Assembly (NCBI RefSeq): GCF_019649055.1
Contig: NW_026570622.1
Location: 1 to 26,640, forward strand
Direction: 5' to 3'
Length of the DNA stretch: 26,640 bases
DNA from: Paramacrobiotus metropolitanus
Taxonomy: Eukaryota > Tardigrada > Eutardigrada > Parachela > Macrobiotidae
The translations under genes and the position numbers were made by a program. This document shows, piece after piece, positions 5,774 through 26,640 of the stretch. Under the pieces are notes generated by a model. The model made no database searches. It saw nothing but the letters and a program-made list of their open reading frames with translations, and had not been told where the DNA came from. Position 1 is the stretch's first letter. Each line of letters starts with the position of its first letter.

Positions 5774-6930
5774 CGATTGGGATGACGCTTGTAGCCGGCA
5801 GAAAGGTGGACGGGTGGATGGTGGATGTTCAATGAAATCGCATCCACCAATCTGCCGACCTTCGGCAGATTGGTGGATGAGCCGTCCACCTTTCTGCCGG
5901 ATCGTATCCACCTTTCTGCCGAAGGTCGGCAAATTGGTGGACGAGCCATCCACCTTTCTGCCGGAGCACATCCACCTTTTTCTAAGGCATCCACCTTTCT
6001 GCCGAACCAATCGATCGGCGTCGATTGATGTGACAAGGAAGCCATTGAGTGCATTCAGGCCCATTGTAAGATCAGTCAGTGCATGCGTACACTGCTCCGG
6101 CAGAAAGGTGGATGCGATCACCCAGATGTTCCTATCACTCTTTCTAAACATGTCATCCTACTCGTTTTGGTTCTCCGGAGAGATTTGTTTTTATTTTCGA
6201 AATTTAGTTTAAACCTAGAGCTAGGCGAGGAGCACCGTACTCCTCGTCAATCAGCTCGCTGTCTCCGCAGATGAAAAAGTGAAGACCACATTTTTTCCTC
6301 TCTCCTCGCCTAGCTGTAGGTTTAAACTAAATTTCGAAAATAAAAACAAATCTCTCCGGAGAACCAAAACGAGTAGGATGACATGTTTAGAAAGTTTTTT
6401 AGACAGCGGCTCTCTATCCAGATACAACGGGGGAATGCGATTTGTGTAATGGGTACAATTCCCGATCAGGATAGCATTGAGGAAGTGTTTCTGTTATGAG
6501 ATTAATGTTTTCTAGTACTAAGTTTGTACTTGTGACATGATACTTATTAAAGGTGCAGGTTATGTTTAGAAAGAGTGATAGGAACATCTGGGTGATCGCA
6601 TCCACCTTTCTGCCGGAGCAGTGTACGCATGCATTGACTGATCTTACAATGGGCCTGAATGCACTCAATGGCTTCCTTGTCACATCAATCGACGCCGATC
6701 GATTGTCTACAGAAAGGTGGATGCCTTAGAAAAGGTGGATGTGCTCCGGCAGAAAGATGGCTCGTCCACTTGCCGACCTTCGGCAGAAAGGTGGATACGA
6801 TCCGGCAGAAGAGGTGGCTCATCCACCAATCTGCCGAAGGTCGGCAGATTGGTGGATGCGATTTCATTGAACATCCACCATCCACCCGTCCACCTTTCTG
6901 CCGGCTACAGACGCTGGTTCATCCCAATCG
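5774..6930. mobile_element. Large foldback (long inverted repeat) element with internal CCACCTTTCTGCCG subrepeats
   Basis: The left arm 5774-6232 (459 bp) is the reverse complement of 6302-6930 over nearly its whole length once a 179 bp insertion in the right arm is removed; the loop is only about 69 bp. The outer 370 bp of each arm are packed with CCACCTTTCTGCCG and its complement, which are themselves nested hairpins (for example CCACCAATCTGCCG opposite CGGCAGATTGGTGG near 5846-5875). The inner 90 bp of each arm are non-repetitive. Small indels separate the arms. No protein is encoded: the open frames here follow the repeats. It resembles foldback-type DNA transposons, which have subrepeated long terminal arms, but no transposase or target duplication was found. 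Confidence 0.8.
6395..6573. mobile_element. 167 bp insertion in the right foldback arm, flanked by 12 bp direct repeats
   Basis: The left foldback arm has no counterpart to this segment. ATGTTTAGAAAG occurs at 6383-6394 and again at 6562-6573, so one copy plus 167 bp (6395-6561) is extra. That is the footprint of an insertion with a 12 bp target duplication, or of a deletion between direct repeats in the left arm. The insert has no ORF or terminal inverted repeat that I can see. Confidence 0.6.
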
Positions 6931-7870: not shown

Positions 7871-9211
7871 TTAGACACTGAAAAGTTTAGTTGGGCCAGG
7901 TGGAAGCCACAGTTTATCCGAGCGCCTATTGAAGACAGCATAACTACAACAAAGAGCAATTTTAGCCATTTTCTTACAAATTAAGGAGGAAGTGTTAGAA
8001 TTACAACCAGATATTTGCTTCAACAAGCAGGTCAAACTATGACTGGTACTTTTGGGAATCATTCCCAAAGATCCCACAGCAATATGATGTTGCTTTACAG
8101 TCCAACCTAGTCCTGCAAGATCGTTCTGCAGACTGGCGTATCGCGTACTTTTCCTAGACTCAGCGTTGCGAAAACTTTCTACCGATTCAAAAGGTACTGT
8201 TATTTCAACAATATCGATACGTTTCAGTGACCTATTAATTACAGTAATATCAGGGAAAACGTTAGTTGTGAGAATGTCAGAAGGAATAGTGTCAACATGC
8301 GAAGAATAGGAATCAGGCGCTAGATCACACAGGACTTCGGTGTGCTTGTCGGTGTCCTTGATTGCAGCAGTTAATCCGTCAGCCAGTGCTTTGACGACAC
8401 TGTTGTGCCTCCATGTAAAGCGCGCAGACTGTAATGAGACTGGACAACCATTAAGTATATGACCAAGTGTGCCAGCAGCATTATCGCATAATGGACAATT
8501 AGGAGTTACCAGTTTGCCCCATTTGTGGAGATTGGTAAAAGATGGAGCGACATTTAGTCGAGCTCGGGTGAGAAAAGAACATGTGCTCCGTGGTAGGTCG
8601 AATTTCAGGGAAGACCAGTAACTGTCGGCGTCTTCCTCATTAGCAACACGCAGCCATGCACCTTGTTGTACAAGACTGGCCACGTGTTGTTCTCGCTCCA
8701 GTGTGATGATGGAGTGAACATGGGAAGACACATTGTCTTTGGCAGTGGCACGAGCTTTGTTACAGGCAGCGGTGCTGCCATCGCCTGCCACAATAGCAGC
8801 ACGGGCGCTATCAGCCTCAGCCTGAATAACGGGGGCAAACTGGTGCATGGGGTTAGACGGCGATTGTATCGCCTCCTCGGCGGCACACTGAACTACTGGG
8901 TCAGTACTAGAGATTAGACAATCAACAATAAGACCACCTCTAGCTTGGTAATAGATGGTTTTGATAGATTTGAAATTAGCACCCTGCGGTAGAAACAAGG
9001 AATCAGTGTTAGCGCACTGAGGGAGGCGAAGCCACTTACGCAAAAACTTGTTGCTCAATGTTTGCAACTTATCAACAGCTGCCGGATTCAGATCGTGTAC
9101 AGTTAAAAGGAAACGGATTGACTGAACAATATAGTTATTATAGAGATTCATTTCTGTTGACTTACCGCAAGTCAGACTTACAAAAAGCCAAGTGGCAGTG
9201 AGTAACAACAA
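7871..9211 (-). pseudogene. R2/NeSL-like non-LTR retrotransposon, C-terminal zinc knuckle and endonuclease part
   Basis: A 446-residue minus-strand frame corresponds to the region after the reverse transcriptase of retrotransposons with a restriction-enzyme-like endonuclease. YNNYIVQSIRFLLTVHDL near residues 25-42 is the segment following the RT thumb. CPLCDNAAGTLGHILNGCP near 238-256 is a C-x2-C-x7-H-x4-C zinc motif. FPDITVINRSLKRIDIVEIT near 320-340 fits the PD-(D/E)xK-type endonuclease core. Most of its start region, before about residue 15, has no element homology I can recognise. The frame is unbroken but lacks an RT, so it is a truncated copy that could not move alone. The copy starts just where the fragment at 9861-11767 stops. 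Confidence 0.8.
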
Positions 9212-9860
9212 ATGACGCGTAAAAAACTATCCAATAATGCGATAACATACCAACTGTCACTGCCGCGATAAGTGAATGACCGAACTTACGCTAAGTAAGC
9301 CTGTTGATAAACAACTGCGTACATGTACTTTATGCATCTTCACAACGCACATGGAAAAAAAGAGCGCGAAAATGTTACTGTATATCCAATTATCTTCAGT
9401 ACATCGGGATAGCTAATTAGCCGTCTTGAATGACTATCGAGTTTGCTTTTATATTGCTTAATTAATAATTATTGCGCAAAATTACCACCTAATTAGTAAT
9501 GAATGCCATCTCAAAGTTATTAAATTAATGGTAGCATATGCATCTCTCTGCGATGTAATTATGTTAAATCTGATTTTGTTATTACACAGCGTCGATAACA
9601 TAACATTAACGTGCAATGCAGTGCAGTTGCATTGCACTCACCGTGTACATCGTGTAACGTGTAACACGCACAATGCATGGATAAGTCAACGATGCCAAAC
9701 GGAAAATCTAGTCGAGACTAGATTTTCCGTTTGGCAATGTTGCCTTAAAGTGGGCATGTGTTGACTGTTGCAACAAACCAATGCACAACGCTTGCGTTAT
9801 CTCTGAATGACACATAGGACCGTGACGCACAGGCTGTTGGGCTGCATTATCATAAGGCAG
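9212..9860. other. Spacer between two retrotransposon fragments, with two strong hairpins
   Basis: No gene is supported in these 649 bp. Hairpin 1 has 10 bp arms GTGCAATGCA (9611-9620) and TGCATTGCAC (9628-9637). Hairpin 2 has perfect 20 bp arms at 9694-9713 and 9716-9735 around a 2 nt spacer. The segment could be an element inserted into one retrotransposon or simply DNA between two truncated copies. Confidence 0.5.
9694..9735. repeat. Perfect 20 bp inverted repeat, 2 nt spacer
   Basis: The arm GCCAAACGGAAAATCTAGTC at 9694-9713 is exactly complementary to 9716-9735, leaving only GA between. It could extrude as a cruciform or be the stem of an RNA hairpin. No T-run follows to suggest a pol III terminator. 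Confidence 0.85.
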
Positions 9861-11767
9861 TCAGAACTGAAAGTACCTATTGTAAATCCACAATTTAAAT
9901 TCATCACGAAGAGACAGCTGGTCAGTTTTTAGAAGCAAATCCATTAAACAATTATTGATACTTTTATGAGCGTTGCGACGCTGGTTATTTGAAAAGACAT
10001 ACGAACCAAGAAATTTCATTGGTTCCGATTTTATATTAGGCACAGCAACTCCGTTAACAAAAAATTCAGTATCAGAAGCGACACCTCTTATTAAAGAAAA
10101 AGACCTGCATTTCGAAACTTTTAAAAAAGGCCCATCTTTGCCATTCGAACGTTAACTTCACGCAAGAGCTTATCCATAGAACGTTTATTGTTTGTTATTA
10201 AAGTCAGATCATCGGCAAAAGCAAGGGCGACCACTTTCTCGTTTTCGATTTCAATGCCGACATTGTTTTTCAGCTTCAAATACTCCAGTACCGGATTAAA
10301 ACACAGAAGAAACAGGATACAGCTCATTGAATCACCTTGGAACAGGCCAACTTTAAAGGGGATGGGATTAGTGGTAAAATCATTATTTTGCACCTTAACA
10401 GTTAAGCCGTCATAATAGGCCAGAATATAATTGATGTAAGACGCGCTGATTTTATAGCGGGAGAGAACATCTTTTAACAGCTCGTGTCTCACTGAACCGT
10501 AAGCATTTGCAATATCAAGCCATGCTACATGCAAAGCATGCTTAAGCTTACGCTGTTTTTCGATGATATGTTGCAGTTTCATCGAATGCTGCCCACAGCC
10601 GTTCATGCATTCGATGAAACCTTTCTGCACCGAGACATCAATAATATTATTTTTTTGAACAAAAGAAAGGATACGGTTCGAGATAACTGTATGCAAAATT
10701 TTTGCGCAACAGCTGGTTAGGGTAATTGGCCGATAGTTAGAGCAATCGCCAGCGTCACCGGCTTTGTACAAAAGAATAGTGCGACCAACTTTCCAAGAAA
10801 CTGGCGGAGTAGCGGTGGAGATAATTTTATTATACATCGCTGCTAAAAAATTGTGCAGTATAGGAAAATTTTTGAAAACACCATATCCCAGTCCATCAAG
10901 CCCCGATCCAGTACGCCCTGATTTTTTCTTCAGTGCACGATTAATTTCCCTGCCCAAAATTGGAGAGTCGTTAAAAGACATGAAAATTTCAGGAGATTTT
11001 AATTCATTAAGCCAAGACAAATTCAGCGGCTCACAGGCATCCGGGTTGTACGTTTTCTCGAAATGGGATTCAACATCGGCCTTGCTGAGACAGTTAGAAT
11101 TAGCGTCACCGGTTTTTGAAAATTTTTCTTTAATGAATGCATACCGATTTTTAAGAAAAAACTTTTCATTAGTCTCCATTTCTGACACTTTTTTCAGTTC
11201 AGAGATCCGATTGCTCAACCTTTTGTTCAAGACACGGAGATGCTGCAACGCAAACGCATCCTCTTCAGGCAGTTGAAAACCACGCGCCTGCAGTCGCCTA
11301 CGTTTACGAATGATTTTAGTGATGCGACCGGCAATTTTAAATTTTTCATCAATTAATTCACGGGGAACGGATCGCTTCATAATTTTATCAAAAAAAGTCG
11401 ATTTCGAAGCAGTTTTACATTTAAGAATTTTAATAAAATAATTGGCTAAAGACCAAGTTAATAATTCAATAACAGTATCTGCAGAAATGTGACCTAGTAA
11501 TTCAGCGCTTTTAAGCCGAGAAGTAATATCACCAATGAAATTTTCAAACCTGACAACTACTTCAGCAGGGAGCGATTCCCAGTCTGGCGCGATGATCTTG
11601 GGACGGGAACAATTTTCCTGGCATATCTGATCGATACTGGGTGAGAGTTGGTCATTAGCAATAATACCGGATAGTAAATTATATAAATCATCAACACTTT
11701 CGATATTGTAATTCACAATACGGATAGAAGCGGAAGCCATTTTCACACAAAAATTGAACGCATACAA
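9861..11767 (-). pseudogene. R2/NeSL-like non-LTR retrotransposon, N-terminal and reverse transcriptase part
   Basis: The minus-strand frame 11767-10121 encodes a 548-residue polyprotein portion. Visible RT blocks include YRPITLTSCCAKIL, SVQKGFIECMNGCGQH, HVAWLDIANAYGSV, LFQGDSMSCILFLLC and ALAFADDLTLIT, the last containing the catalytic FADD. The first likely Met is in MASASIRIVNY rather than at 11767. The frame ends at MGLF-stop in a six-T run (about 10126-10131). The thumb (SKCRSFSLIRG, then PMKFLGSYVF) continues in a frame shifted by one base to 9861, so one T is probably missing. No canonical slippery heptamer is present. The thumb stops at FKLWIYNRY, before the zinc knuckle and endonuclease. 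The copy is therefore broken, although its RT core is intact. Confidence 0.85.
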
Positions 11768-11938
11768 AAAAACAAGAAGGGTTTGAAATTCGGTCTGATG
11801 GTCAGTCGGAGAGCAAGGGTGATCGGGTGGAATACTGGCAAATTTCCGTCGGAAACGCCGAATATTTGGTAATCACACAAGCAAATGGTGGAGTTAACTC
11901 AGTTTAGTCAGTCTAACCGAAAGCGTGCAGCACGGTGC

Positions 11939-12006
11939 GAGCGATGGTCAAGACTGAGCGATGGTCAAGACTGAGCGATGGTCAAGACTGAGCGATGGTC
12001 AAGACT
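11939..12006 (+). repeat. Four perfect tandem copies of a 17 bp unit
   Basis: GAGCGATGGTCAAGACT is repeated at 11939, 11956, 11973 and 11990 without a mismatch, followed by a partial GA. Identity between copies suggests a recent expansion. It lies 10 bp before the GPCR exon and just outside the 5' end of the minus-strand retrotransposon. Confidence 0.95.
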
Positions 12007-12015
12007 GAATTCTAG

Positions 12016-12420
12016 AAATTCATGCGAAGAGAACTAGCCGGTAAAGTGGACAGAATTCATAACGCGATGAAATACATAAATCAAAGGACCGTGTCCAGTC
12101 ATACGGAGCACCATTCCAACACTATGCCGGTTGTGGATAGGAAAACATCCCGGAGAGAGCCGAAACGAGCACTGGTGGTGCTGGTGTTTCTGACGTTCAG
12201 TGTGGTGATCTGCTGGACGCCGGGAGTGTCGTACTTCACCATCCAGCTGGTGTTTAAAGTGGAGTTGCCGTATGTGTGGCTGCAGATTGGCGCGATGATG
12301 TTCTCCTCGCAGTCGGTGGTCGATCCCATTGTGCTGGCGCTGAGCGTCGCAGACGTCAGGGAGACGATTGTGCTGGTTGCCAAAAAAGCCCGTAAAACGT
12401 GTTTTGAAAATGAATGTTAG
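12016..12420 (+). CDS. Rhodopsin-like (class A) GPCR, terminal exon with TM6 and TM7 (partial)
   Basis: The frame runs to TAG at 12418-12420. An in-frame TAG ends at 12015 in TTCTAG, a possible 3' splice site, so the exon probably begins at 12016; ATG at 12022 gives 132 residues. Residues 1-49 are basic and polar, as in a third intracellular loop. TM6 is about 50-73, with CWTP at 64-67 matching the class A CWxP motif. TM7 is about 84-107 and ends SQSVVDPIVLAL, so the usual NPxxY is DPxxL. The tail holds KKARKTCFENEC, with a Cys near the membrane that could be palmitoylated. TM1-TM5 are not in the window. Upstream lies the retrotransposon, so the rest is either beyond a long intron or lost. 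The ligand class cannot be told. Confidence 0.8.
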   Translation, partial: KFMRRELAGKVDRIHNAMKYINQRTVSSHTEHHSNTMPVVDRKTSRREPKRALVVLVFLTFSVVICWTPGVSYFTIQLVFKVELPYVWLQIGAMMFSSQSVVDPIVLALSVADVRETIVLVAKKARKTCFENEC

Positions 12421-13374
12421 TCGCTTGTGATTGATACTCCCAAGCAAGTTACTTGAATGTTTGTTAGCACTGCTTTTTTTGGCATGGTAAATGTTCCATT
12501 TTTATGGCAGACTCTACAGTCGACGCAGGACAAACGTTGGGACATCAGGTGCCCCTATTTTAAATAATGACGGATAATGAGGCTCTATCTGAAAAATACC
12601 TATCCAGATTAGAAAGTGTCTCTGTCTCGCATATCTTGAAATCTGTGCTGATCCACACTTTTTCCTCTCTGTAAATTGTTGATCGGCTGTGATTCGGTTT
12701 TCCTGTAATCCACATCCTGTCGACAGCAAAACAGCTGCAACCTGAGCTCAATCGCACAGCAGTCACTCCACAGCGCTTATTTTTTCCAAAACAAATCGTG
12801 AGTAATTTATTATGTATTATGCTGAGCACTTACAACACAAGAAATTTTTAACAGATTCTGATTTTAACATAAAAAAATGTTAACGTCCTAAGATGAAGCT
12901 GGAGTGAAAATACCCGCATTTCCAAATATTTTCTTCGAAGTGTTGACATTTTATTGTCTAATACATTTGCTTACATTGCGATGCGTGAAATATCCGATTG
13001 GGGTTTTTGGCTGTAAAAAAGCTAAAAAAAACGCATCCAGGTGTACCAACAGTTCAATGTAGACAGTGCTGAGTACCGAAAAGATCAATATGTGATTTTT
13101 TTGTGTGCACGAGTATGCGTGATAAAAGCTTGATCGCTTAGTAAAGCGCTTTGCAAGCTTTCTGCTGCGATAATTGTTTCTATAACTTCTATAAATTTTG
13201 CAAATAAACGCACATAATACGAAGATTCCCCTTACATCAAACCTCGGTTTTAAGAGGTTTTAAATTTTACAATGAATATTAAATGCACGAATTTGGTATT
13301 ATATATCAGGTCATTTCCCTGCGATTTGAAAGCCAAAGATTTCTTACGCAAACTTCCGTCCGTGTGCGGTTGAA
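12421..13374. other. GPCR 3' flank, no other gene seen
   Basis: AT-rich sequence without recognisable domains. An AATAAA at 13203-13208 is a possible, rather distant, polyadenylation signal for the GPCR exon. Confidence 0.35.
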
Positions 13375-13655
13375 CCGGGAAACCATGCCTCCTTGACAGC
13401 TGTATTCCCGACATCTACGACGCCGCCGCCCTGGTGGGCGCCCTCCTGCGCGACCTTCTGCGCTCCTCCCCCGATCGAGGCCCAGACGCGCCCGCTTCCG
13501 GGGCGGGCGCACGTGTCGGCATTGGAGCCGCACCCGGGCGACAGTCAGGAGAGCAGGACCTACGCCCACCCCCAACGGACTGCTGCCCGGTGGCGCGCTG
13601 AACGTCATAATGGCCGCCGGGGCGGAGGATGGGGTCCGTGCAGCGCCGCTACCTT
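13375..13655. other. Isolated GC-rich block, possibly an exon fragment
   Basis: About 280 bp are strikingly GC-rich while both flanks are AT-rich. Three overlapping frames are open because of composition. The plus frame reading CIPDIYDAAALVGALLRDLL, then RSSPDRGPDAP, looks most protein-like, with an amphipathic helix then Pro/Gly/Ala-rich linker; it ends at a TGA near 13600. I could not match it to a family. A weak resemblance to the helix around the LLK..LREL region of RhoGAP domains is not enough for a call. Confidence 0.35.
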
Positions 13656-14050
13656 GCAGTCCTCAAGTTGACAATCCTAGAATCGACAATTCAAAATCCG
13701 CGTAACTAACAAAAACGAAGAAGGAAGCAGTAAGAACAGGCACAAACCGTTTCAGGACAACGTTTCAGAATTTGGGCGTCGGCGTTCGCCGCAGAGACTG
13801 CTCTTTATGGAAAGAACGCCGCGGAAACTTCTTAAACACGGAGAGATTTCCGAAATTAGGTCGAAAATTCGTTCAAAAGGGGCAGCATCCAAACTCAGGG
13901 AAGAAAAACCGGCACAGGGGCGCCTAGAATTATTTGCTCACGAGAATTCGATTTTATAACTGCCGATAATGCTTTGAATTATGCAGCAATAACAGCTGTT
14001 AACGAGTTCAGAAATAACTTCGATGTAAAAAAAATTAAAAAATAGATAGT

Positions 14051-14190
14051 GCACGCAGATAAAGGTACTGCCGAATGAATATGTACGGAGTCAAAGGTAG
14101 TGCTCAAAAAGATAGTGTACCGAATGGAAGGTAGCGCAAAAAGTTGTGCACGGAACGAAAAGGTAGTGCAAAAGGTTGAGTACGAAGTGG
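14051..14190 (+). repeat. Degenerate ~32 bp tandem repeat
   Basis: Units start at 14051, 14083, 14117, 14148 and 14180 (lengths 32, 34, 31, 32, partial). Consensus is roughly GTACGGAATGAAAGGTAGTG followed by CAAAAAGTTGT. The units have diverged by substitution and small indels. Confidence 0.7.
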
Positions 14191-15313
14191 TCACCTAATA
14201 ATAACTGCTTGTAAGGAACGTTACCTAATTATTAATGACTAGGGAACGGTTAATCCACGAATGATTTAACGGCCGTTGCTGATACAAGCGGCGCAGCCAG
14301 GCGAATTCGCAGTCGCAGTGTAGTGCCCGCACCCACGGCATCCGGTCGCTCGCAAGAAAACTGTTACGATATCTCCAGTGACAACAAAATGGTTGGACAA
14401 GTCCGAAAACTGCACAAGAACAGGGTTCCCGCTCATATTAGCTTGGGCAATAAACATACACAATTACACATAGGTATAGGCATTACGTGCAAAAGCGGTA
14501 ACCCACACTGGGAAGCGGGAATTCGCATCCGGTTTCATTTATGTTGGCTGTTCACGCATGGAAATATGGAGCAGATTGGCAGTAGAGCCAGTTTTCCCAT
14601 TAAATATGCTACAGTCGATAAAACAAAAACTACCAGTCAAAATAAAAGAAAAATTCAATGCGTGACTCCATTCATTTAATTCTGGCGCGTCGAAGTTATG
14701 CTCAAAATCAAATAATAAATGTCAACAAATTACTGGATGTTACTTTTATTACGAAATAAATAATCAACATGACAATAACCTAACCTAACACTAAGTACGT
14801 ATTCTTGTATAAAACTCGCTTTCCGGCTTCGCTTCGGTCTAATAGTGCTAGCCTAAAGCGGTGCACTTCCCTAGTTTTATTTATTCTAGTTATTTTTTTT
14901 ATTTTCTTTTTTATTATTTAACCGCGGACAGATTAGAGTGTGACCGACGGACAGACGAAATCCCGTGTCCTTGAACAGAGGGACCTTCGGACCTAAAGGG
15001 TGCCACCAGGATTAGTCGCCCTTCGGTCGCCTGATCCAGGTGGCGCCCCTTCAATGGCCGGATGAAAACGGGTCGGCGTTTCGGTAGATCCGTCTGCAGT
15101 AGCATTATTTCCGCCGTCTACCAAATGAACCAAACTGACAATGAAGAAACCCGGTAAATTGTTAGGTGACGGGGTTGGCGTCCAGCGACAACGCTGTTTG
15201 TATCCCTGGATGTCATAACACGACGATGCCAAAATCGCCGTCAGCCATTTAGGCTATTGGGGCTCTCAGATCCTCTGCTGCGTCACTGCCCCGCGTAATG
15301 CGTTGCAGCTGGG
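14191..15313. other. Non-coding stretch with an extended hairpin
   Basis: No supported gene; the open frame 14323-14679 (118 codons, no ATG at its start) has no recognisable domain. Bases 14998-15015 and 15031-15048 form an 18-pair stem with one mismatch and two G-T pairs (left arm starts GGGTGCCACC, right arm ends GGTGGCGCCC). AATAAA-type hexamers occur near 14755-14762. Confidence 0.35.
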
Positions 15314-15380
15314 TAGCCATAAATCTCGGTTTGGCGATATTCTCAAGTTGAGAATATCGTCACACCGAGATTTATGGCTA
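15314..15380. repeat. 33 bp near-perfect palindrome with 1 nt spacer
   Basis: The arm 15314-15346 (TAGCCATAAATCTCGG..ATATTCTCAA) is complementary to 15348-15380 at 31 of 33 positions. A second small hairpin follows at 15382-15396 (GTTGAGA, one base, TCTCAAC). A third partial copy of ATCGTCACACC lies at about 15407-15417. Confidence 0.85.
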
Positions 15381-15752
15381 TGTTGAGAATCTCAACAAGG
15401 ATTAAATCGTCACACCAGGGTACTGATGAATTCGTGAAACTCAGTCACAATTAACTGCGATGGACTGCTGATGGCGGCTAAGAATGATAATAAGTTTGCC
15501 AGAAACAGCCGAAGATTAGCAATCCATCTGGAGGTAATATGGAGCAGACAGAACAGTAATCGGCGCATTGATCCCATAGCGGATTACGAAAATGCCTGCC
15601 ATCGGCAGCCATAGTTAAGCTAAATTAAATTGCGTTTCCACATCTTGAGAAGGACAAGCCAAAAACGAGCCTCTGCTTGTCCCGCTGCATAAGACAACTT
15701 TACGCTGGAATATGCCAGGTGTCAACGGCCACAAAAGCACCGGTGTAGAAAA

Positions 15753-16251
15753 TTAAATGTCCCATTCTAAAGGAAGTGCATCCTTATGTATTAACTTTAT
15801 GACTAAGCGACTAGCTGCACCCTGTTCCAGTATTCCATACATCTGAGCATTTCCAGGAGCGTATCCATCGATTATTGTTTGCTCCCAACAAGCAAGCTCG
15901 CTTTTCCTGTTATCCGGACAGCGCCGCCGTTGAAACTGCATCTTTACCCGGATCGCGTTCTGCGGTTTCATTTAGCAAGATTGATCCAGTAAGCCGGACG
16001 AACGTATGATTAAATTACTGTATGGACGACTTTACGCCTTACTGCAAAATGATACCTGTGTAGTGTTCGAGCGGGAGACATTGCAGGCAATCACTGATTC
16101 CAAGAGCCCGTATTTTCTCAGCCAATCGAGACCACCACCGGCATGCAACAAAACGCGCCAGTAGCGGAGATTACGGTGCGATTGGATTGCTTCCTGTACT
16201 TCAGGCAACGAGGTTGGATTGCCGGGAGCCAGTTTGACGTATAAAGCGGCG
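15753..16251 (-). CDS. Unrecognised protein, last two exons (partial, minus strand)
   Basis: Exon 16251-16056 starts after TATTATGCAG and ends with CAG before GTATCA. Exon 15959-15753 starts after AACCGCAG and ends at TAA. The intron is 96 bp, similar to those of the astacin gene, and the junction is phase 0, so the frame continues. The first exon reads LAPGNPTSLPEVQEAIQSHR and then a WRVLLHAGGGLDWLRKYGLL helix-like segment. The second contains CPDNRKSELACWEQTIIDGY and ends LEWDI. I do not recognise the family. The fit of two independent splice sites and phase is the main support. Upstream exons were not found, so the gene is incomplete here or is a remnant. Confidence 0.45.
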
Positions 16252-16619
16252 CTGCATAATATGTGACACCATAATAATGTTAGGCTCTCGCACAGTCTGA
16301 CGTAACTGCCCACTCTAATCACGAAGCAAGCATTGAGGAAGGTTAGCAATTAAAGCCACAATTGGGAATAAAAAAATAAGCCATACAAATATGATGCTCA
16401 CTTCTTTTTCGCAATACATCAGTTCTTATTCTGAAACCTTAAGATCACGAATCTAATACTTAAATTTGCAGTATTTTTACATCACATTTCCATCGCAAAA
16501 GTATGTATTACGACGAGTTGCAAGCAAGGAATGAGAACTGCGAGCAGTCGTAGTCCATCGCAGTCGCTTAGCTCACTGGCCTGTTTACAGGCTAGAACAG
16601 ACGTTGCTACAAAATGTTA

Positions 16620-16740
16620 AGTGCGAAGTGCATAAAAGAAAGTGTGCATAAATAAACACGAAAGTTTCATTTTGCATAAAGGCATAAACATGTCCATAAA
16701 TAGCAACATAATACCGTGAATAAATACATGCTACAGCGGC
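16620..16740 (-). repeat. Inverted relative of the 452-680 minisatellite
   Basis: Read on the minus strand, this stretch gives TTTATGCAAAATGAAACTTT, then CGTGTTTATTTATGC, the same unit as at 452-490. Additional GCATAAA and ATAAATA motifs extend to about 16735. Confidence 0.65.
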
Positions 16741-17407
16741 AGTCGCAGCACATCAGGCCATAAACCGGAAACGATGCAAGTATCGGATTCTGAGCGAACA
16801 GTACTGGTTTTATCCCTTTGCCATGAAAAGCCTCGGACTGCTCGGCGAAACAGCCAGAGAAGTGGTCAGCTTTTTTTAAAGCGCCGTATTAGTATTGGAT
16901 CAAAGGCAATGCGACTGCCGTTTTAGGAACCTTTCCGTGCAAGAATAAAGTTACTGATAATACTGAATTTTACATTTTGAATTTACATATTGGATTTACA
17001 TATTGAATTTTGGTAATTTTTTATTACATACGTTGTAAAATGAAGAAATATTGTTAGCAGCACAGTATAGCCCACGGCAGTATAGCCCAGTAAGTAGGCG
17101 GACAAGTTCGCCGTGAGATAACGAGGATGTACGTGTATATACGATATACATACGTGTACAAGCTGCTGAAATATGCGACCGAAAGTTTGTTGGGTGAATA
17201 TTTGTTTCTTCTACTGAGAATGTGCCGCCTTTAGTAATGAGTAGTAAAAAATTTTTCTGTGATTTGTGTGGAAAAATTTGATTGACGGCGCATGGGATAG
17301 CGTCACATCGCGACAGTGGAAAATGAAGAGAAGCTCAAGCCCGCAACTTACGAAACAAGCCCGGGCTCCCCACTGCATCCCCCCAACCAGTTCCACACGA
17401 CGAAAAC
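16741..17407. other. Non-coding spacer before the second retrotransposon
   Basis: No gene is supported. There is a short direct repeat CAGTATAGCCCA near 17065-17092 and an imperfect ACGTGTATAT palindrome near 17130-17160. From about 17266 codon use begins to resemble the following retrotransposon frame, so its 5' part may start here. Confidence 0.3.
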
Positions 17408-20182: not shown

Positions 20183-21060
20183 ACAATCCACCGGTTTGCC
20201 GTTCGAAGTGCGCCCCTGATGAGGCTGTTGCGTAAGTCACTACCGTTAGCACTAATAACGGATTTTTGGCCGCTAAAATAACAACTGTGATTCTGCAGTA
20301 ATTCTTGCAGGTAGTTCTATATATTATCAGCAGCACGGCGCAGAGGCTCACGATAAATAGGAAATGAGGCTTTATTGTGTGATAGCAATAAAGTACAGCA
20401 CTGTGCGTGAGCAAAATCATGACTGACAAGAATGATCGGCTGAATGAGCCGTAACATGGAAAATGCCTATCTGCGGCACTGGGCTGATCCAACACGAGCG
20501 AACGAACGCTCATTGGCCGAGACGTATAGCCGTAGGCGTGGTAAGGCAGCCGAGCCAGAGTCGAGGCCAATACGGCTGCAGGAGCAGTGCGACTCGGTGT
20601 GAGTCAGCACACCGGAAGCAGGACTGTCGCTGGCTGCCTACTCATAGGCTGCAATGGCGACTGGCCCAACATACCCTGGGCAGGAGTCCGAGCCCTGCGA
20701 AGGACCGGCCTCATACCGCTCAGTGCCCGCTCCGCACTCGATATGGGGTCGGTGGCTGCGCCTCGGTGATGTCCGATGAAGGTCTCTCGGTGCCGCGTTC
20801 TCCTCCGGACCCGTGGTGGCGATACAACTCACGGCAGAAATCCGAAGGTCGGTCGGGATTCTTGTTGGACCAGTGTAGGCTTCTGTTGATGAACCTCCGT
20901 AACGGCAAGAAAATGAAAGTAAAAATGAACATCAGTCTCTCTCTCTCTCTCTTAATAAAACATTATTTCATAGTTAGAAAAACAGAAAAACAAAATCAAA
21001 GTCTTTGGTCCGGGGCTTTGGTCCGGGACTTATTCCGACAGGATGACGTCCGTCCCCGGG
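20183..21060. other. Spacer with a (CT)n tract, possible end of another retroelement
   Basis: Bases 20460-20935 are richer in GC and in short protein-like stretches, but no frame stays open with a recognisable domain apart from composition. They end at a 17 nt (CT)n run (20936-20952) followed by AATAAAAC. That resembles the simple-repeat tail of some non-LTR elements. Near 21001 the phrase CTTTGGTCCGGG is duplicated. Confidence 0.3.
20936..20952 (+). repeat. (CT)n microsatellite
   Basis: Seventeen nucleotides of uninterrupted TC/CT alternation just before TAATAAAAC. Confidence 0.9.
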
Positions 21061-21383
21061 GTCTCTAGTCCACTAGAAATCCGGTCATCTAGGTCCGAGG
21101 CATCGGTTCTCGGGATACCCAATGGTACCGGTTCAATTCACCGAGGGTCGAAGGTGCGACCCTATTGACTTCGTGTAAAGGGTATGGATCTCCATTGTCG
21201 GGTGCGGAACGGGCGTGAAACACACTTTCGACCGGGATCCTCCGGTAAAAGTTTGATTGGAACCTTCATAGCCGGGTAAGACAGGTCGTACTTACATCCA
21301 GCCGGGATTCATAGGGTAAGCTGATGGGGGAGGCACTGTCGCTGCTTGTGAAAACCATAAGGCATCCTCCCTGGGTGAGGAAT

Positions 21384-21400
21384 AAGACCTATTGGGTCTT
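21384..21400. repeat. Family A hairpin, stem AAGACC/GGTCTT
   Basis: Perfect 6 bp stem around the loop TATTG. It shares only the CC-TATTG-GG apex with the neighbouring copy at 21464. A variant with AGACC/GGTCT and loop TAATTG lies at 22473-22488. Confidence 0.8.
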
Positions 21401-21463
21401 TTAATCGGTGGATCGTCCGGTGATCCAAGGTTCTATCCGGGCATAACCGTGATGTCGTGTCCT

Positions 21464-21480
21464 GTCACCTATTGGGTAAC
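21464..21480. repeat. Family A hairpin, stem GTCACC/GGTAAC
   Basis: A 6-pair stem with one C-A mismatch around TATTG. It is extended by TCCT at 21460-21463 facing AAGGA at 21481-21485 with one bulged A. Confidence 0.75.
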
Positions 21481-21525
21481 AAGGACCGGTTGATGCCTGG
21501 TTTCCACAGGTTGAGCGGCTAGTGG

Positions 21526-21562
21526 ACGTGGTTCACACTGCACCGTGCATTGTGAACCACGT
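21526..21562. repeat. 12 bp perfect hairpin in the array
   Basis: ACGTGGTTCACA at 21526-21537 pairs with TGTGAACCACGT at 21551-21562. After one mismatch, an inner TGCA/TGCA stem continues around CCG, giving about 16 pairs in all. Confidence 0.85.
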
Positions 21563-21646
21563 TCTGGTCCGAATGATGCTATGGCCTCTGTGCGGGAGTC
21601 CGATCCCTTGTCCGGTTGGCTTCAAGACTTTGAAGTCCGATAATAG

Positions 21647-21661
21647 CCTCGGTGACCGAGG
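21647..21661. repeat. Family B hairpin, stem CCTCGGT/ACCGAGG
   Basis: Perfect 7 bp stem around a single G. Other family B copies: 21891-21905 (CCTCG/CGAGG), 22227-22240 (CCTC/GAGG), 23060-23074 (CCTCGG/CTGAGG with a G-T pair) and 23877-23897 (nine pairs, TAACCTCGG/CTGAGGTTA). Confidence 0.75.
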
Positions 21662-21939
21662 GTTTGGTCAGCTCCGGTTGCAGCATCAGAGTCCATGCTC
21701 AGCCTCGGTTACTGAGTCTAAGTCCTTTGGCAGCCTCGGTACTCGAGTTAGAGTCCGGGTTATACCCTCGGCTGCACTGGCAAATGGGGTACACTGATGT
21801 TCCGCTCGGCTGAAAATCTTAATTTTGTATCTTGCCACCTATTGGGTAACTCGGAGAGGATATTCGACGGGGTTCGAAGGGTCAAGGCAGCCTCGGTACT
21901 CGAGGTTAAGTCCCGATGTACCCTCGGCTGTGGTGGTAG

Positions 21940-21955
21940 ATCGCGGTTACGCGAT
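21940..21955. repeat. Family C hairpin, stem ATCGCG/CGCGAT
   Basis: Perfect 6 bp stem around GTTA. The related copy at 22903-22914 has CGTAT/ATACG around TT, showing a different but still paired stem. Confidence 0.75.
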
Positions 21956-21999
21956 GTGCTGGATGTACTGTGCGGCCAGTAATCCCAAATCTGTCTCTT

Positions 22000-22016
22000 G
22001 TTACCTATTGGGTAAC
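22000..22016. repeat. Family A hairpin, stem GTTACC/GGTAAC
   Basis: Perfect 6 bp stem, loop TATTG. Further A copies with GTCGCC/GGCAAC lie at 22146-22162, 23162-23178, 23647-23663 and 23814-23830; all four keep the same C-A mismatch. Confidence 0.8.
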
Positions 22017-23432
22017 TCGGGAAGGGTGGGTTCCGGACTTTGAAGATTGAAGTCCGAGGGTCGATTAGCCTCGGTTGGCTGGCAGATCGCGGTTGACGGT
22101 CTGATGGTCGCTACATCCCGGCAAAAACCTTTGCTGTCGGTGTAAGTCGCCTATTGGGCAACTCTACCGAGGGTCTTACCGATGAGATGACGTTGCTACC
22201 CGAGGCAGCCAACGTGTCTGGGGTAGCCTCGGTGGTGAGGTAGTCAGCATCTGGTAAGGCTGGTCCTAAAGCATTCTGCACGGGCAAAAAACCTTCGACG
22301 TCTCCCGAAACCTATTGGGTAACACGAAGAGGGTCATTGCCTCCAAACAGGGTCCAGGCCTCGGTGACGAGACTGGCCCAACATGGTCTGGTGGGAGTTC
22401 GCTTGATGCTGGAGATGTCCACCGGGCGACTAGCAAAAATCATGCAAAAAGAAGCTATTCGACGGCTGTAAAAGACCTAATTGGGTCTAAGCCGCGAGGT
22501 AGACACTCTAAGTTTTAAAGACGGAGTCCATGCTGGTCCGTTCCTCGGCTGGTCCCGTGCTTCCGCTTAGGCGGTAACATCCGCGATCCCGGAATGATGC
22601 ATCCTATCTTGGTCATCGGGGAACGCAGTCCATTCTGGCCGGTTCACGCCGGGGGATTCTCTACGGGAGGTCCGTTCTGGATCATATCCGGGCAATCCAG
22701 CTGGTTAAACAGGCGCAAGAGGCCTACTGGGCCATTACTCCAACTTCTCAAGTAGGGGTGGGGGTATGAGTGTGCATAATGTCCCGCTTCATCCGTTCTG
22801 GAGGTGGAATGGAAGCCTATTGGGCCTCGGTGGGCATCCTTGCCGAGTTAGAGTCCGTGAGTAGCCACGGTCTTCGGTGGGCTTCCATGGTGAGGTAGAG
22901 GTCGTATTTATACGCGATCTGCGGGGGTTTGCGTCTTCCAAGGGTCATTCTGCCGGAGCGACAGGCCAGTGGAGCAAAACGGATCACGCCGCGCAGCACC
23001 GTCCCGTCGCTTTTTGTACGATGGATTCTGCCAGAGTTATGGGTTGGGTCCGACCGCAGCCTCGGTTGCTGAGGTAAAGTTCAATTCCGAGCCCCTGCAG
23101 TCGGTCAGCTTTTTAAGTTTCGAGGTCTTTCGTCCTGGCAAACCCGTCAATTCCGTGTCCAGTCGCCTATTGGGCAACGTAGACCGGATAAGACTAGGCT
23201 TCGAGAGTCCAATCCGAGGGTTGCCAGAGGTTGCTGAGTTAAAGTAAATGCAGCCTTGTAGCCCCGGCTGCGGAGTTAAAGTCCGCTGGCAGCCCTGAAG
23301 CAAGTTGAAGTCCGTAAGAAGCCCTGCCTTCAGATCGTGGTTAGTCGCGACCTGCGTTGGCTAGGGTGAAGGCTCCGTTCTGGGCCGAAATGGTGGCAAG
23401 TCGTGGTTGGAGACCGCAGTCTGCGGTGCTGA

Positions 23433-23570
23433 GGTTGTTGATGCCGAAGGATCCAAGCATTCTACCGGATGCTGTCCGGTGGAAACCGCGGAAGACATAC
23501 CGGTACGGTGCGAGCACTGAAGTTCTGACGGCTGCACTCGTACTTGCCTGGTCAATCCGGGGAGTCCGTT
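23433..23570 (+). repeat. 138 bp duplicated module, copy 1
   Basis: It aligns without gaps to 24351-24488. Shared landmarks are GGTTGTTG at the start, ATGCTGTCCGG, AACCGCGGAAGAC, CGGTACGGTGCGAGCAC, TTCTGACGGCTGCAC and GGTCAATCCGGGGAGTCCGT. It contains its own hairpin ACCGGA/TCCGGT (23464-23480). Confidence 0.85.
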
Positions 23571-23720
23571 CGTGTCTGTGGTTAGACACTCTGCTGGGTC
23601 GGATTTCCGATGTTTCAACCAGGCGAAACCCTTATTTTCGTCTCCCGTCGCCTATTGGGCAACATAGAGAGGGTTTTCGCTGGACTTGGAAGTCTCGATC
23701 GGGTTATCCTCCATGTCCAA

Positions 23721-23736
23721 AGTAACTTCGGTTACT
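23721..23736 (+). repeat. Hairpin AGTAAC/GTTACT with a cTTCGg tetraloop
   Basis: The perfect 6 bp stem closes on C-TTCG-G, the sequence of the very stable UNCG RNA tetraloop when transcribed from the plus strand. That hints at a plus-strand RNA, on a single example. Confidence 0.7.
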
Positions 23737-23780
23737 GGGATAGCCTCGGTATGGCCCTTGGCTAAGCTGAATCCTCGGTG

Positions 23781-23837
23781 TTTTGCCGGGCAAAATCCCT
23801 AATTTTGTCTCCTGTCGCCTATTGGGCAACGTGGAGA
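23781..23837 (+). repeat. Complete E+A hairpin module
   Basis: TTTTGCC (23781-23787) pairs with GGCAAAA (23789-23795). Alternatively CAAAAT (23791-23796) pairs with ATTTTG (23802-23807). Directly after, TCTCC (23808-23812) pairs with GGAGA (23833-23837), enclosing the family A stem GTCGCC (23814-23819), TATTG, GGCAAC (23825-23830). The two E pairings share bases and so exclude each other. Confidence 0.7.
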
Positions 23838-24100
23838 GGGGTATCACCGGCCCTCCGAGGTTGGATAGGATGAGGGTAACCTCGGTGTCTGAGGTTAAGC
23901 CTCTGGGCTGGAGTCCGAGTCCGGCTCACTGTCCTGTCAGCTCCAGTGGGGTTCTTTCGAGAGTGGATTGGGACTTAGAATTTCCACGGGGGTTAAGTTG
24001 GACCTATGGGGCCTCAAACTCCGGTTCCTTCAGGGTCCGGGTGGTTATTAGCATCCATCTGTTCAGTGGCTTAATGTGTTTGAAGACTGCGACGTAGCAA

Positions 24101-24121
24101 ATCGTGGTTAAGAGCCGCGAT
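24101..24121. repeat. Family C hairpin, stem ATCGTGG/CCGCGAT
   Basis: Seven pairs including one T-G, loop TTAAGAG. Family copies at 24205-24218 (CGTGG/CCGCG), 24318-24340 (AGAT plus GTG facing CAC and ATCT) and 24626-24638 (CGTA/TACG) retain pairing with changed stems. Confidence 0.75.
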
Positions 24122-24350
24122 CTGTGGATGGAATATGGTCGCGGAGGTCTCCACGGACGGCCGTACCTGTGGCGGTCCTCTGTTGCTTTTCTTCGGTAGC
24201 AGAACGTGGTTAGCCGCGAACTGCAGTTCAAACATCGTTGACTCTGGCAAAGGTTCCATTCTGGGCCAATGGTGATAGCCAATCGTGGTTGAAGTCGCAG
24301 TCTGCGATGTTGGTAGCAGATGTGGTTGAGGACACGATCTGTGCCATGAA

Positions 24351-24488
24351 GGTTGTTGGTGCCGGAGGATCCGAACATTCTGACGGATGCTGTCCGGGAG
24401 AAACCGCGGAAGACGCGCCGGTACGGTGCGAGCACCGAAATTCTGACGGCTGCACCCGTATTTACCGGGTCAATCCGGGGAGTCCGTT
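24351..24488 (+). repeat. 138 bp duplicated module, copy 2
   Basis: Gap-free partner of 23433-23570, 918 bp downstream. It contains the perfect hairpin CGGTGC/GCACCG (24424-24437); copy 1 has GCACTG there, giving a G-T pair. Confidence 0.85.
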
Positions 24489-24819
24489 TCTTCGGATTCA
24501 GAATGTTTACCCTCAGAGGGTGGAGTTAGACTTAAGCTTCTCCACCGAGGGTCAAATTGGACTTAGAATTTTCGACGGGGGTTCAACCACCGTATGCCTT
24601 ATTGAGGATCCGGTTAGGTAGAGAACGTAGTTAGTACGATCTGCGCTTCTGGTCCATTCTGCCACCGTATCCCTTATTGAGGGTCCGTATGGTAGAAGAT
24701 GTGGTTAGGACGCGATTTACGGGGGTTTTACTGCCGTTTCCATTATTGAGGGTCCGGCTAGTAGCGAAAACAGGGTGAACGCCGCGATCTGCGGTGGCAA
24801 GGTCCGGGAACTATTGTCC

Positions 24820-24838
24820 ACGTCCCTATTGGGGACGT
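24820..24838. repeat. Family A hairpin, stem ACGTCCC/GGGACGT
   Basis: Perfect 7 bp stem around TATTG. Related copies are CCCT/AGGG at 24671-24683, ACTC/GGGT at 24877-24889, ACCC/GGGT at 25055-25067, GCACC/GGCGC at 26241-26255 and ACTCGCC/GGCAAGT at 26294-26312. Confidence 0.8.
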
Positions 24839-26361
24839 CGTCGTGACCGTTTTCGGCTAGCTTTATGGTAAGCTTAACTCTATTGGGGTCCGGCTACCGT
24901 TAAGCTCCAGGTCGCCGAAGCTCTTCCGATGTCCGATGTCTATGGGACCTGTATTGAGCCTTCGGCTTTCTTCGTTGGCCAGCCTCCGTCCATCGACGCG
25001 ATTCTTCCTACAATGGTCCGGGGCCGGTTGAGCTTCTCTGGATTGATGGGGTCAACCCTATTGGGGTCACTACCACCATCAAAGATTGTACCGGGAGTGG
25101 TCTCTGTACGATCAAAAGTCTGAAATTATACCAAATTCTATGGTTCCCTATAAATTACGTCGTATGGCTACTACGATCAGGTACGGCCGGTTCTCGCTCG
25201 TATCCGCATTGGAGGGAGTCGATTCTACGATTCACAGACGCATTCTGCATCCACTGAGGTGTTGTGTTGTTTCCTTTGTCGGCCCGATTGATGTGGCTGG
25301 TTTAGCCTCAACCTTCAGTCATTCAGGCTTCTTCGGCTTCTCCGATGCAGCCTTGGGTAATTTGAAGGAGTCCGATATCTGCGTCGAGCCGACCCTCACG
25401 GGGGTCTTGCACCGTCGTAGAAAGTCAAAATTGAAGTCAAGGCTCGGTCTGTGCCATTGTCTTCACGGTTTCCGGAAAATTCGGGCTGTCTAGCCGGGCG
25501 TCCGGGATCGGGGCTTCGGGTTCTCCAAGGCTTCCATAACATGTCTATGAGGGTGATGACCTGTTTGGTGCCAAGTCTGACTTCCAGCTCCGGGTTAACC
25601 ACATTCTTGCCTATGTAGCAAGGCGGGGCCATCGGAAAGTGCGTTTTCTTACGGATGTGAACCTCGGGTCGATCGCCTCCTGCGCTCCTATCCGGTTGAT
25701 TACTCCGTTCAGGTGTAATTTGGCGGTTTCGGGCCGTCGCGTCCGGCTTAAGTCCGATTTTCGGTGATATCCCTCTCTCTACCGACGAAGTTTGGAGTTT
25801 TCGCCCGTAAAATGGCAGCTTTGCCCGGTCAGTCAAGTTTTCCAGCCATCTTGCTCGGTGAAGGTAGGGTCCGGACCCCTGAGTGAGGGTTCCCACCGTC
25901 ATTTGGAAGGGTCCGAGGTTCATCCTTAGGGGGTGCGTTTGAGGTCCCCAAACGTCTTTTTCGGTCCGGCAAGGCCGATTCTCGGTCCTTTTCCGGATGA
26001 CTAGGGTTGCTTCTCGGCGGTTTGAGGCTACAAGTCGGGAACGTCAAAATTCCACCCGGTGAACTCGCCTTGTGAGTCACCTTCCGTGTCGGTAAAGAAG
26101 TCCCTTGGATCCATTCTGGATCCATTCTGGTAACCGTGTCACTTCATTGGGATAATACCGGGTCATCGAGGTTTGATGACACCGCGGCAACGGTTAGTAC
26201 CGGGTACGAGCCTCCGTTGATTGGAGCAATGGTTGCCATGGCACCTATTGGGCGCTCAAAGCCAACCCGAGCCTCCGGGTTCCCAGTATTCACACTCGCC
26301 TATTGGGCAAGTCGGAACCTCGGATCCAATTTAGGATGGCTCTCGGAAAGTTCTATCCCGG

Positions 26362-26640
26362 TCATTCTCCAGGTATCTTCTGGCATTCAGTAGTGGTCAC
26401 CAGCCGATCACTTGAGTAACCACTACTGAGGAGCTTTTTATCGCCCCAGAGTGCTTCTACCTCGGCTTGCATGGCTGCTAGCTCGACCTGGCTTGAAGGA
26501 GACATTAGCGGCTCTTCTATCTGCCACTCAGTGCCCGATGCCTCTGGTATCGGGATTGACTTCACTGTCTCATTCTCCCTTCTGGGTTCGTCTACCTTCG
26601 GAGCTTCTTCTTCCGGAGCAATCGTCTGTCGCTCGCCGGT
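26362..26640 (-). CDS. Protein-coding exon of unknown function, open at the window edge (partial)
   Basis: The minus-strand frame is open from 26640 to a TGA at 26362-26364, giving 92 residues. The N-terminal part is acidic and polar (APEEEAPKVDEPRRENE), followed by EWQIEEPLMSPSSQVE and a predicted helix LAAMQAEVEALWGDKKLL. Composition and codon use differ from the echo frames of the hairpin array, so I take it as a real exon. The true 3' boundary may be a donor before the TGA, for example GTGACC near 26400. It has no recognised domain. A cytoplasmic or gag-like protein are both possible. The array would then be its intron or 3' flank. Confidence 0.5.
   Translation of the reverse strand, partial: TGERQTIAPEEEAPKVDEPRRENETVKSIPIPEASGTEWQIEEPLMSPSSQVELAAMQAEVEALWGDKKLLSSGYSSDRLVTTTECQKIPGE
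26387..26429. repeat. 11 bp inverted repeat overlapping the exon
   Basis: TCAGTAGTGGT at 26387-26397 is exactly complementary to 26419-26429, with a 21 nt loop. It lies at the border between the coding frame and the hairpin array. Confidence 0.75.

Follow-up and report, generated by a model that had tools for sequence, protein, structure and literature searches.

A recurring CAAUA hairpin, a putative protein-binding site, in the RNA of a Ty3/Gypsy-type retrotransposon of the tardigrade Paramacrobiotus metropolitanus

Human immunodeficiency virus 1 (HIV-1) and murine leukemia virus (MLV) have a small number of packaging stem-loops close to the 5′ end of the RNA, and the zinc-knuckle Gag of these viruses reads hairpin loops. 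Dispersed packaging signals are described for RNA viruses such as MS2 and for hepatitis B virus (PMC6281560). For Ty1 and Ty3, a review presents the cis-acting packaging signals as not clearly defined and states that scattered sites may contribute (PMC4974528). Here, we analyzed a window of 26,640 nt, the forward strand of contig NW_026570622.1 from the tardigrade Paramacrobiotus metropolitanus. Its positions 20672-26361 are, judging by homology, almost certainly the 3′ non-coding part of a long terminal repeat (LTR) retrotransposon of the Ty3/Gypsy type, the sense strand of which is the minus strand of the window. The RNA of this element carries about 20 hairpins with the loop CAAUA, which are located not only in the 3′ region but also within the open reading frames (ORFs) of gag and the accessory protein. 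Coordinates without a prefix refer to the window; C-numbers denote contigs of the same genome and L-numbers the stretches fetched from them.

As in HIV-1 and MLV, the Gag of the element contains a zinc knuckle; here, however, the hairpins number about 20 and are densest near the 3′ end. The resemblance to the signals of MS2 and hepatitis B virus consists in many stem-loops on one genome RNA, with a shared short loop motif and variable stems (PMC6281560). The present case differs from them in a loop that is almost fixed as CAAUA and in its carrier, an LTR retrotransposon, and contact with a coat protein is here something that we infer. With yeast Ty3 the element shares LTRs, 4-bp duplications, a CCHC Gag and the order reverse transcriptase (RT), RNase H, integrase, but it is longer, has extra ORFs and bears a repeated covarying hairpin that is not among the Ty3 features described in the extracts (PMC4974528, PMC11381356). 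As an oversized Gypsy element with extra ORFs it is also similar to Burro of planarians and Ogre of plants (PMC6431247), a likeness in size and in extra ORFs; a difference is the length of the LTRs, here ~350-400 bp. No element of this kind came up in a literature search for CAAUA hairpins, which yielded a single paper, on a coronavirus.

The identity of the region was established by comparison with other copies in the same genome (169.8 Mb), in which 21061-26330 had at least 144 matches including itself, with 40 of the 117 candidates scored. Direct LTR pairs with 4-bp target duplications were found at C59, C105 and C59b. The complete element at C59 is 14.85 kb long; its 353-bp direct repeats, which share 99.4% identity, run from TGTGACAG to CCAACA and are flanked by the duplication CAAA. 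The C105 and C59b elements are 10.9 kb each, with LTR identities of 96.3% and 95.7% and the duplications CACT and CTAT, and solo LTRs at C66 and C117 are accompanied by TCAT and CTAT. The only LTR of the window copy in the contig is located at 20325-20671 (minus strand, sense orientation); it matches the LTRs at either end of the C59, C105 and C59b elements, and its edges were set by comparison with the latter two. The gag-like ORFs lie on the minus strand in window orientation. At the inner edge of the 5′ LTR in sense orientation, C105 has the sequence TGGTAGCAGATC, of which near variants occur in C59, C142, C59b, C50 and C1; we take it to resemble the primer-binding site for initiator tRNA-Met. 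The strand of the gag and pol ORFs and this inner edge indicate that minus is the sense strand, that the LTR of the window is the 3′ LTR, and that the region next to it is 3′ non-coding.

This non-coding region (20672-26361, minus, assigned by homology to C59) is limited by the LTR, which starts at 20325, and by the stop of a gag-side ORF at 26362. The latter ORF, which follows gag, is represented at 26362-26640 (minus) by its last 92 codons and the stop; its translation resembles the C59 ORF 10835-12436. It is cut by the end of the contig at 26640, so the other LTR of the window copy is outside the contig. In comparison with C59, the window copy has lost ~3 kb between 25245 and 25662, including the accessory ORF. 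The original prediction, made from the letters of the window, had described more than 5 kb without a protein gene. In fact, ORFs of up to 215 aa are present in the region; the single one tested, 25396-26043 (minus), had no Pfam match, and the corresponding 3′ region of the C59 copy wholly contains no ORF of at least 200 aa. The original prediction knew of no named repeat with such motifs. Our search of Rfam 15 gave no match at the gathering score for the window and none up to E 1 for 20341-26640. The suggestion of an independent long structured non-coding RNA was abandoned, as the transcript to be expected comes from an LTR element in which gag lies upstream. At C17:165000-194999 (L001-L003), a 9.3-9.5-kb unit of the element occurs three times in tandem, the copies being ~99% identical.

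The hairpin named family A has the minus-strand consensus NNNNCC-CAATA-GGNNNN with a stem of ~6 bp. A stem was counted when at least five consecutive pairs, G·U allowed, directly adjoined the pentaloop, and 1000 dinucleotide shuffles of 20672-26640 served as the null. The minus strand of this stretch contains 21 CAATA, 13 of them on such stems (3 if G·U is disallowed), while the shuffles gave a mean of 4.3 CAATA (maximum 13) and a mean of 0.02 with a stem (maximum 2). Among the 1024 pentamer loops on either strand, CAATA ranked first with 13 stems, and the next best loop had 3. When the same 21 places were read as the plus strand, 3 had a stem, and the plus strand has no CAATA hairpins of its own.

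The 13 hairpins, all on the minus strand and all identified both by the stem count and by the covariance model described below, differ in the length of the stem. Nine pairs are formed at 21461-21483 and eight at 22144-22164, followed by seven pairs at 26294-26312, 24820-24838 and 23646-23664. Six pairs were found at 25053-25069, 23814-23830, 23162-23178, 22812-22828, 22000-22016, 21834-21850 and 21384-21400, and five at 26241-26255. Weaker hairpins on the same strand, likewise matched by the model, have four pairs (24671-24683) or three pairs each (24597-24607 and 22310-22320). The other five CAATA, with loops ending at 21167, 24748, 24816, 24885 and 24956 (minus), have 0 or 1 pair.

To measure covariation, the 21 window sites, for which the loop was the sole criterion of choice, were aligned without gaps and compared with 500 shuffles. 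Paired stem cells amounted to 83.3% versus 58.2% in shuffles, the covariation score was 0.699 versus 0.230, cells changed on both sides numbered 36 versus 13.0, and further pair types 19 versus 13.3; none of the 500 shuffles reached any of these values. Pairs with a change on both sides were 6 versus 4.6, a value reached by 50 of the 500. All six stem pairs covary in the window sites, and when the register was slid, pairing was 20.6-46.0%. The analysis was extended to 11 stretches with 295 sites, of which 255 were distinct. In these, pairs 1-6 were Watson-Crick in 75, 75, 71, 58, 55 and 49% of cases versus 48, 52, 30, 25, 29 and 31% after shuffling. Pairs 7 and 8 showed no excess, and pair 9 reached 42 versus 29%. 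The original prediction of covarying hairpin families was thus borne out for family A, with its score far above the shuffled one and its 13 stems among 21 sites against 0.02.

The strand on which the pairing matters was examined with a strand-blind wobble test, in which sites with at least four of six Watson-Crick pairs were selected and their remaining cells classed as G·U, A·C or other. In the sense reading, 15 of the 21 window sites gave 13 G·U, 1 A·C and 3 other cells, and 165 of the 255 distinct sites gave 88, 20 and 66, respectively. The excess of G·U over A·C in this reading indicates that the constraint acts on the sense RNA, and it is very probable that the CAAUA hairpin is under selection there. 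The G-T pairs that had been predicted to make sense in RNA are real in family A, and they belong to the minus strand. Such a bias, seen in the wobble pairs and in the model matches, would be meaningless in double-stranded DNA. It speaks against the idea that the hairpins are maintained at the DNA level, as palindromes in a satellite or as hot spots of recombination. An imperfect inverted repeat, its 18-nt arms separated by 1 nt, does exist at 21526-21562, apart from the CAAUA family and in a stretch absent from the C59 copy, and it would suit that idea. Tandem Repeats Finder, however, detected no array covering the region, only short arrays of 2-3 copies, and the palindromic satellite proposed earlier turned out to be a dispersed LTR element with target duplications. 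We consider an origin as DNA palindromes very improbable.

Changes between copies were followed in 12 stretches by comparing ordered pairs of related copies, so that one event was counted several times, and no kinship correction was applied; gapped sites (58 CAATA, 182 control) were set aside. Hairpins with other pentaloops (375 sites) served as the control. Where both sides of a pair had changed, 78 CAATA cases were still paired and 10 broken, compared with 68 and 95 in the control. A lack of covariation across copies, named in the original prediction as part of what would refute it, was looked for in these 12 stretches, as stated without phylogenetic correction, and family A was not refuted. 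Identity between copies was 0.971 in the loop, 0.941 in the stem and 0.861 in the flank, and control-hairpin loops had 0.860. Most loop changes were U4 to C (49 of 864) or A5 to G (20 of 864). The loop is conserved, and all that is required of the stem is pairing.

This pattern of a conserved loop on a free stem is the opposite of a microRNA precursor. A cluster of small-RNA precursors, as had been suggested, or of silencing triggers, would account for many hairpins in one transcript, but the stems have only 5-9 pairs, their sequence is free and the loop fixed, and no Rfam match was obtained. Such a role is hardly credible. A loop that stays constant while its stem varies freely is suggestive of a site where a protein reads the loop, and we infer such a reading here. 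The CAAUA hairpins are thus quite probably protein-binding sites.

The distribution of the hairpins was determined in further copies. In six stretches, the sense strand holds 22 (C59), 24 (C142), 17 (C39), 13 (C105), 13 (C59b) and 22 (C48) hairpins, 111 in total, and the antisense strand none. The gag ends of C50 (L025) and C1 (L026) contain 8 and 5 on the sense strand and again none on the antisense strand. In C39, 11 of the 17 hairpins lie between 2910 and 7672 of the stretch. Among 145 hairpins in 15 fetched loci, 120 are outside ORFs of at least 200 aa and 25 inside, 17 of these in one frame and 8 in another; the third reading frame of the hairpin would bring TAG in frame. Since two ORF frames are used, no repeated peptide explains the hairpins. 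A covariance model was trained on the 21 window sites and run, with a reporting limit of E 0.5, on 19 sources comprising 183,144 bases. It gave 179 matches, all 179 on the sense strand: 18 were window training sites and 161 lay elsewhere, many of the latter at equivalent positions of other copies. No match was obtained in L020, L021 and L023 (26 kb) or in window positions 1-20340. L020 is a related Gypsy element of the same genome, with pol pieces 42-83% and integrase 51% identical. It has one hairpin among 13 sense CAATA, and of the other loops on its plus strand ACAGA does best (3 of 17); it may lack its own 3′ region, which makes it a weak negative control.

Gag is the first candidate for the reader, because it has a zinc knuckle and must recognize this RNA; the accessory protein comes second, and a host protein is the main rival. 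The knuckle, CX2CX4HX4C, was found in the Gag of C59, C142, C48 and C50, and the Gag of one copy of a sister subfamily has a Gly/Arg-rich stretch. The gag ORF of C59, C142 and C48 (L005, L007, L010) extends 48 nt into the ORF that follows, an overlap that may represent a programmed frameshift. In the proposed mechanism, Gag, with its CCHC zinc knuckle, would bind many CAAUA hairpins on the element RNA; this binding would mark the long RNA as cargo and start the assembly of particles on it. That Gag is the reader and the hairpins are dispersed packaging signals has, in our estimate, slightly less than an even chance. The alternative is that a host RNA-binding protein, exploited by the element for transport, germ-cell localization, stability or translation control, recognizes the hairpins. 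It would fit the same covariation data, and the 3′ non-coding part, in which such signals are common, is also the part richest in hairpins, as in C39. Nevertheless, about 20 sites per RNA, many of them in ORFs, suit an RNA-coating protein better than a localization signal, and the model found no match in window 1-20340, L020, L021 and L023, a search that did not extend to host transcripts at large. A host reader appears rather unlikely. A reader made by the element is favored by the ~20 sites per RNA, their presence in coding and non-coding parts, on the sense strand only, their retention in a subfamily that appears to lack pol, and their near absence from L020, weak as this control is.

The subfamilies were compared by their coding content. 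The sense strand of the sister subfamily (C39, L024) encodes, in order, RVT_1 (E 1.9e-27), RNase H (7.2e-32), an integrase zinc-binding domain (2.1e-17) and rve (3.8e-15). RT and integrase queries found no match in the fetched stretches of C59 and C142 (L004-L008), and C48 has one 92-aa piece matching the part of the query that precedes RT. The window subfamily looks pol-less, a non-autonomous relative of the pol-bearing sister subfamily. Among the matches listed, six pairs of sister-subfamily LTRs in the same orientation on one contig are 25-33 kb apart (C50, two on C1, two on C68, C4), and a seventh is 14 kb apart (C110). The C50 and C1 pairs have a 3′ region at one end and gag at the other; the LTRs of the C1 pair share 96% identity but are without a matching target duplication, so its length as one insertion is unproven.

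The accessory ORF adjoins the 3′ region and carries a CxxC...CxxC stretch. Its sequence is common to both subfamilies (L008:453-1289 and L011:8716-9999, compared by eye), as would be expected if this or another protein of the element read the hairpins so that the long RNA is exported from the nucleus or translated. In Cer1, a Gypsy element of Caenorhabditis elegans, the genomic RNA is exported by an accessory protein, which provides a precedent (PMC10309623). Against this role, the ORF matched no Pfam family at the cut-off and no PDB entry in a sequence search, and the window and C17 copies, which are without the ORF or most of it, still keep the hairpins. We regard a reader of this kind as improbable.

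Returning to Gag as the reader, several observations weigh against recognition of the hairpins for packaging. Eight of the 21 window CAATA have fewer than five pairs. One-sided changes between copies kept the pairing in 189 cases and broke it in 188; for the control pentaloop hairpins, the numbers were 583 and 936. The pol stretch of the sister subfamily (L024) holds a single hairpin, and packaging signals might be expected everywhere. The histidine of the knuckle is replaced by R in all three C17 copies. Moreover, Gag reaches no Pfam cut-off, the Retrotrans_gag capsid domain being detected at E 0.016 in one search and not at all in a second. Taking these points into account, we assign a probability of about 0.5 to the explanation as a whole, namely that the region is the 3′ part of the element, that Gag would read its CAAUA hairpins, that this would serve packaging, and that the window subfamily would depend on its sister.

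The remaining families of the original prediction did not share the behavior of family A. Families B, C and E consist of recurring words, around which no stems with convincing covariation were found. Neither they nor GGACTT gave a strong stem when the best helix was compared with random flanks and flank pairing was scanned at all inner offsets, and flank pairing around the B, C and E core words was near the shuffled level. Family B with fixed CG ends had a weak excess (Watson-Crick 0.32-0.45 in register, 0.11-0.44 slid). In C the stem is short, and little is gained from its six outer pairs once pairs 1 and 3 are counted. For family E, pairing was slightly in excess on either strand (35 distinct sites, 0.55 versus 0.40 and 0.53 versus 0.35). 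Helices around the three families appear longer on the plus strand, which had no matched control there. CGGAC is enriched in sense (39 versus 11.1 in shuffles; 20672-26640, minus) with unpaired flanks, and it is perhaps a second, linear motif. The folding energy of 20700-26330 was mildly below that of shuffles, with a mean z of -0.93 for minus and -0.66 for plus, compared with -0.40 and -0.44 for 13000-17000.

Other features were observed elsewhere in the window. Further retroelement ORFs are located on the minus strand at 7871-9226 and 10121-11872, with zf-RVT (below the cut-off) and RVT_1. An inverted pair of ~380 bp, 94% alike, and tandem copies of a unit holding CATCCACCTTTCTGCCG are present at 5774-6930, and a perfect tandem array of GAGCGATGGTCAAGACT, 4.1 copies, at 11939-12008. 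One telomere pattern was searched for and gave no match. On the plus strand, 2586-2888 is an Astacin exon and 12016-12420 gives a 7tm_1 match below the cut-off, both in keeping with an animal genome.

The pol-less window subfamily keeps the hairpins, as it would if it used the machinery that its pol-bearing sister provides. We tentatively propose a packaging code, in which a CAAUA hairpin every few hundred bases, in coding as well as non-coding parts, would be an address read by Gag, and pol-less relatives would survive by keeping that address. If true, it would explain how a pol-less relative of ~15 kb stays mobile. A repeated, covarying hairpin with a fixed loop, present ~20 times per RNA, gives a sharp, testable prediction on the poorly defined way in which retroelements choose the RNA that they package.

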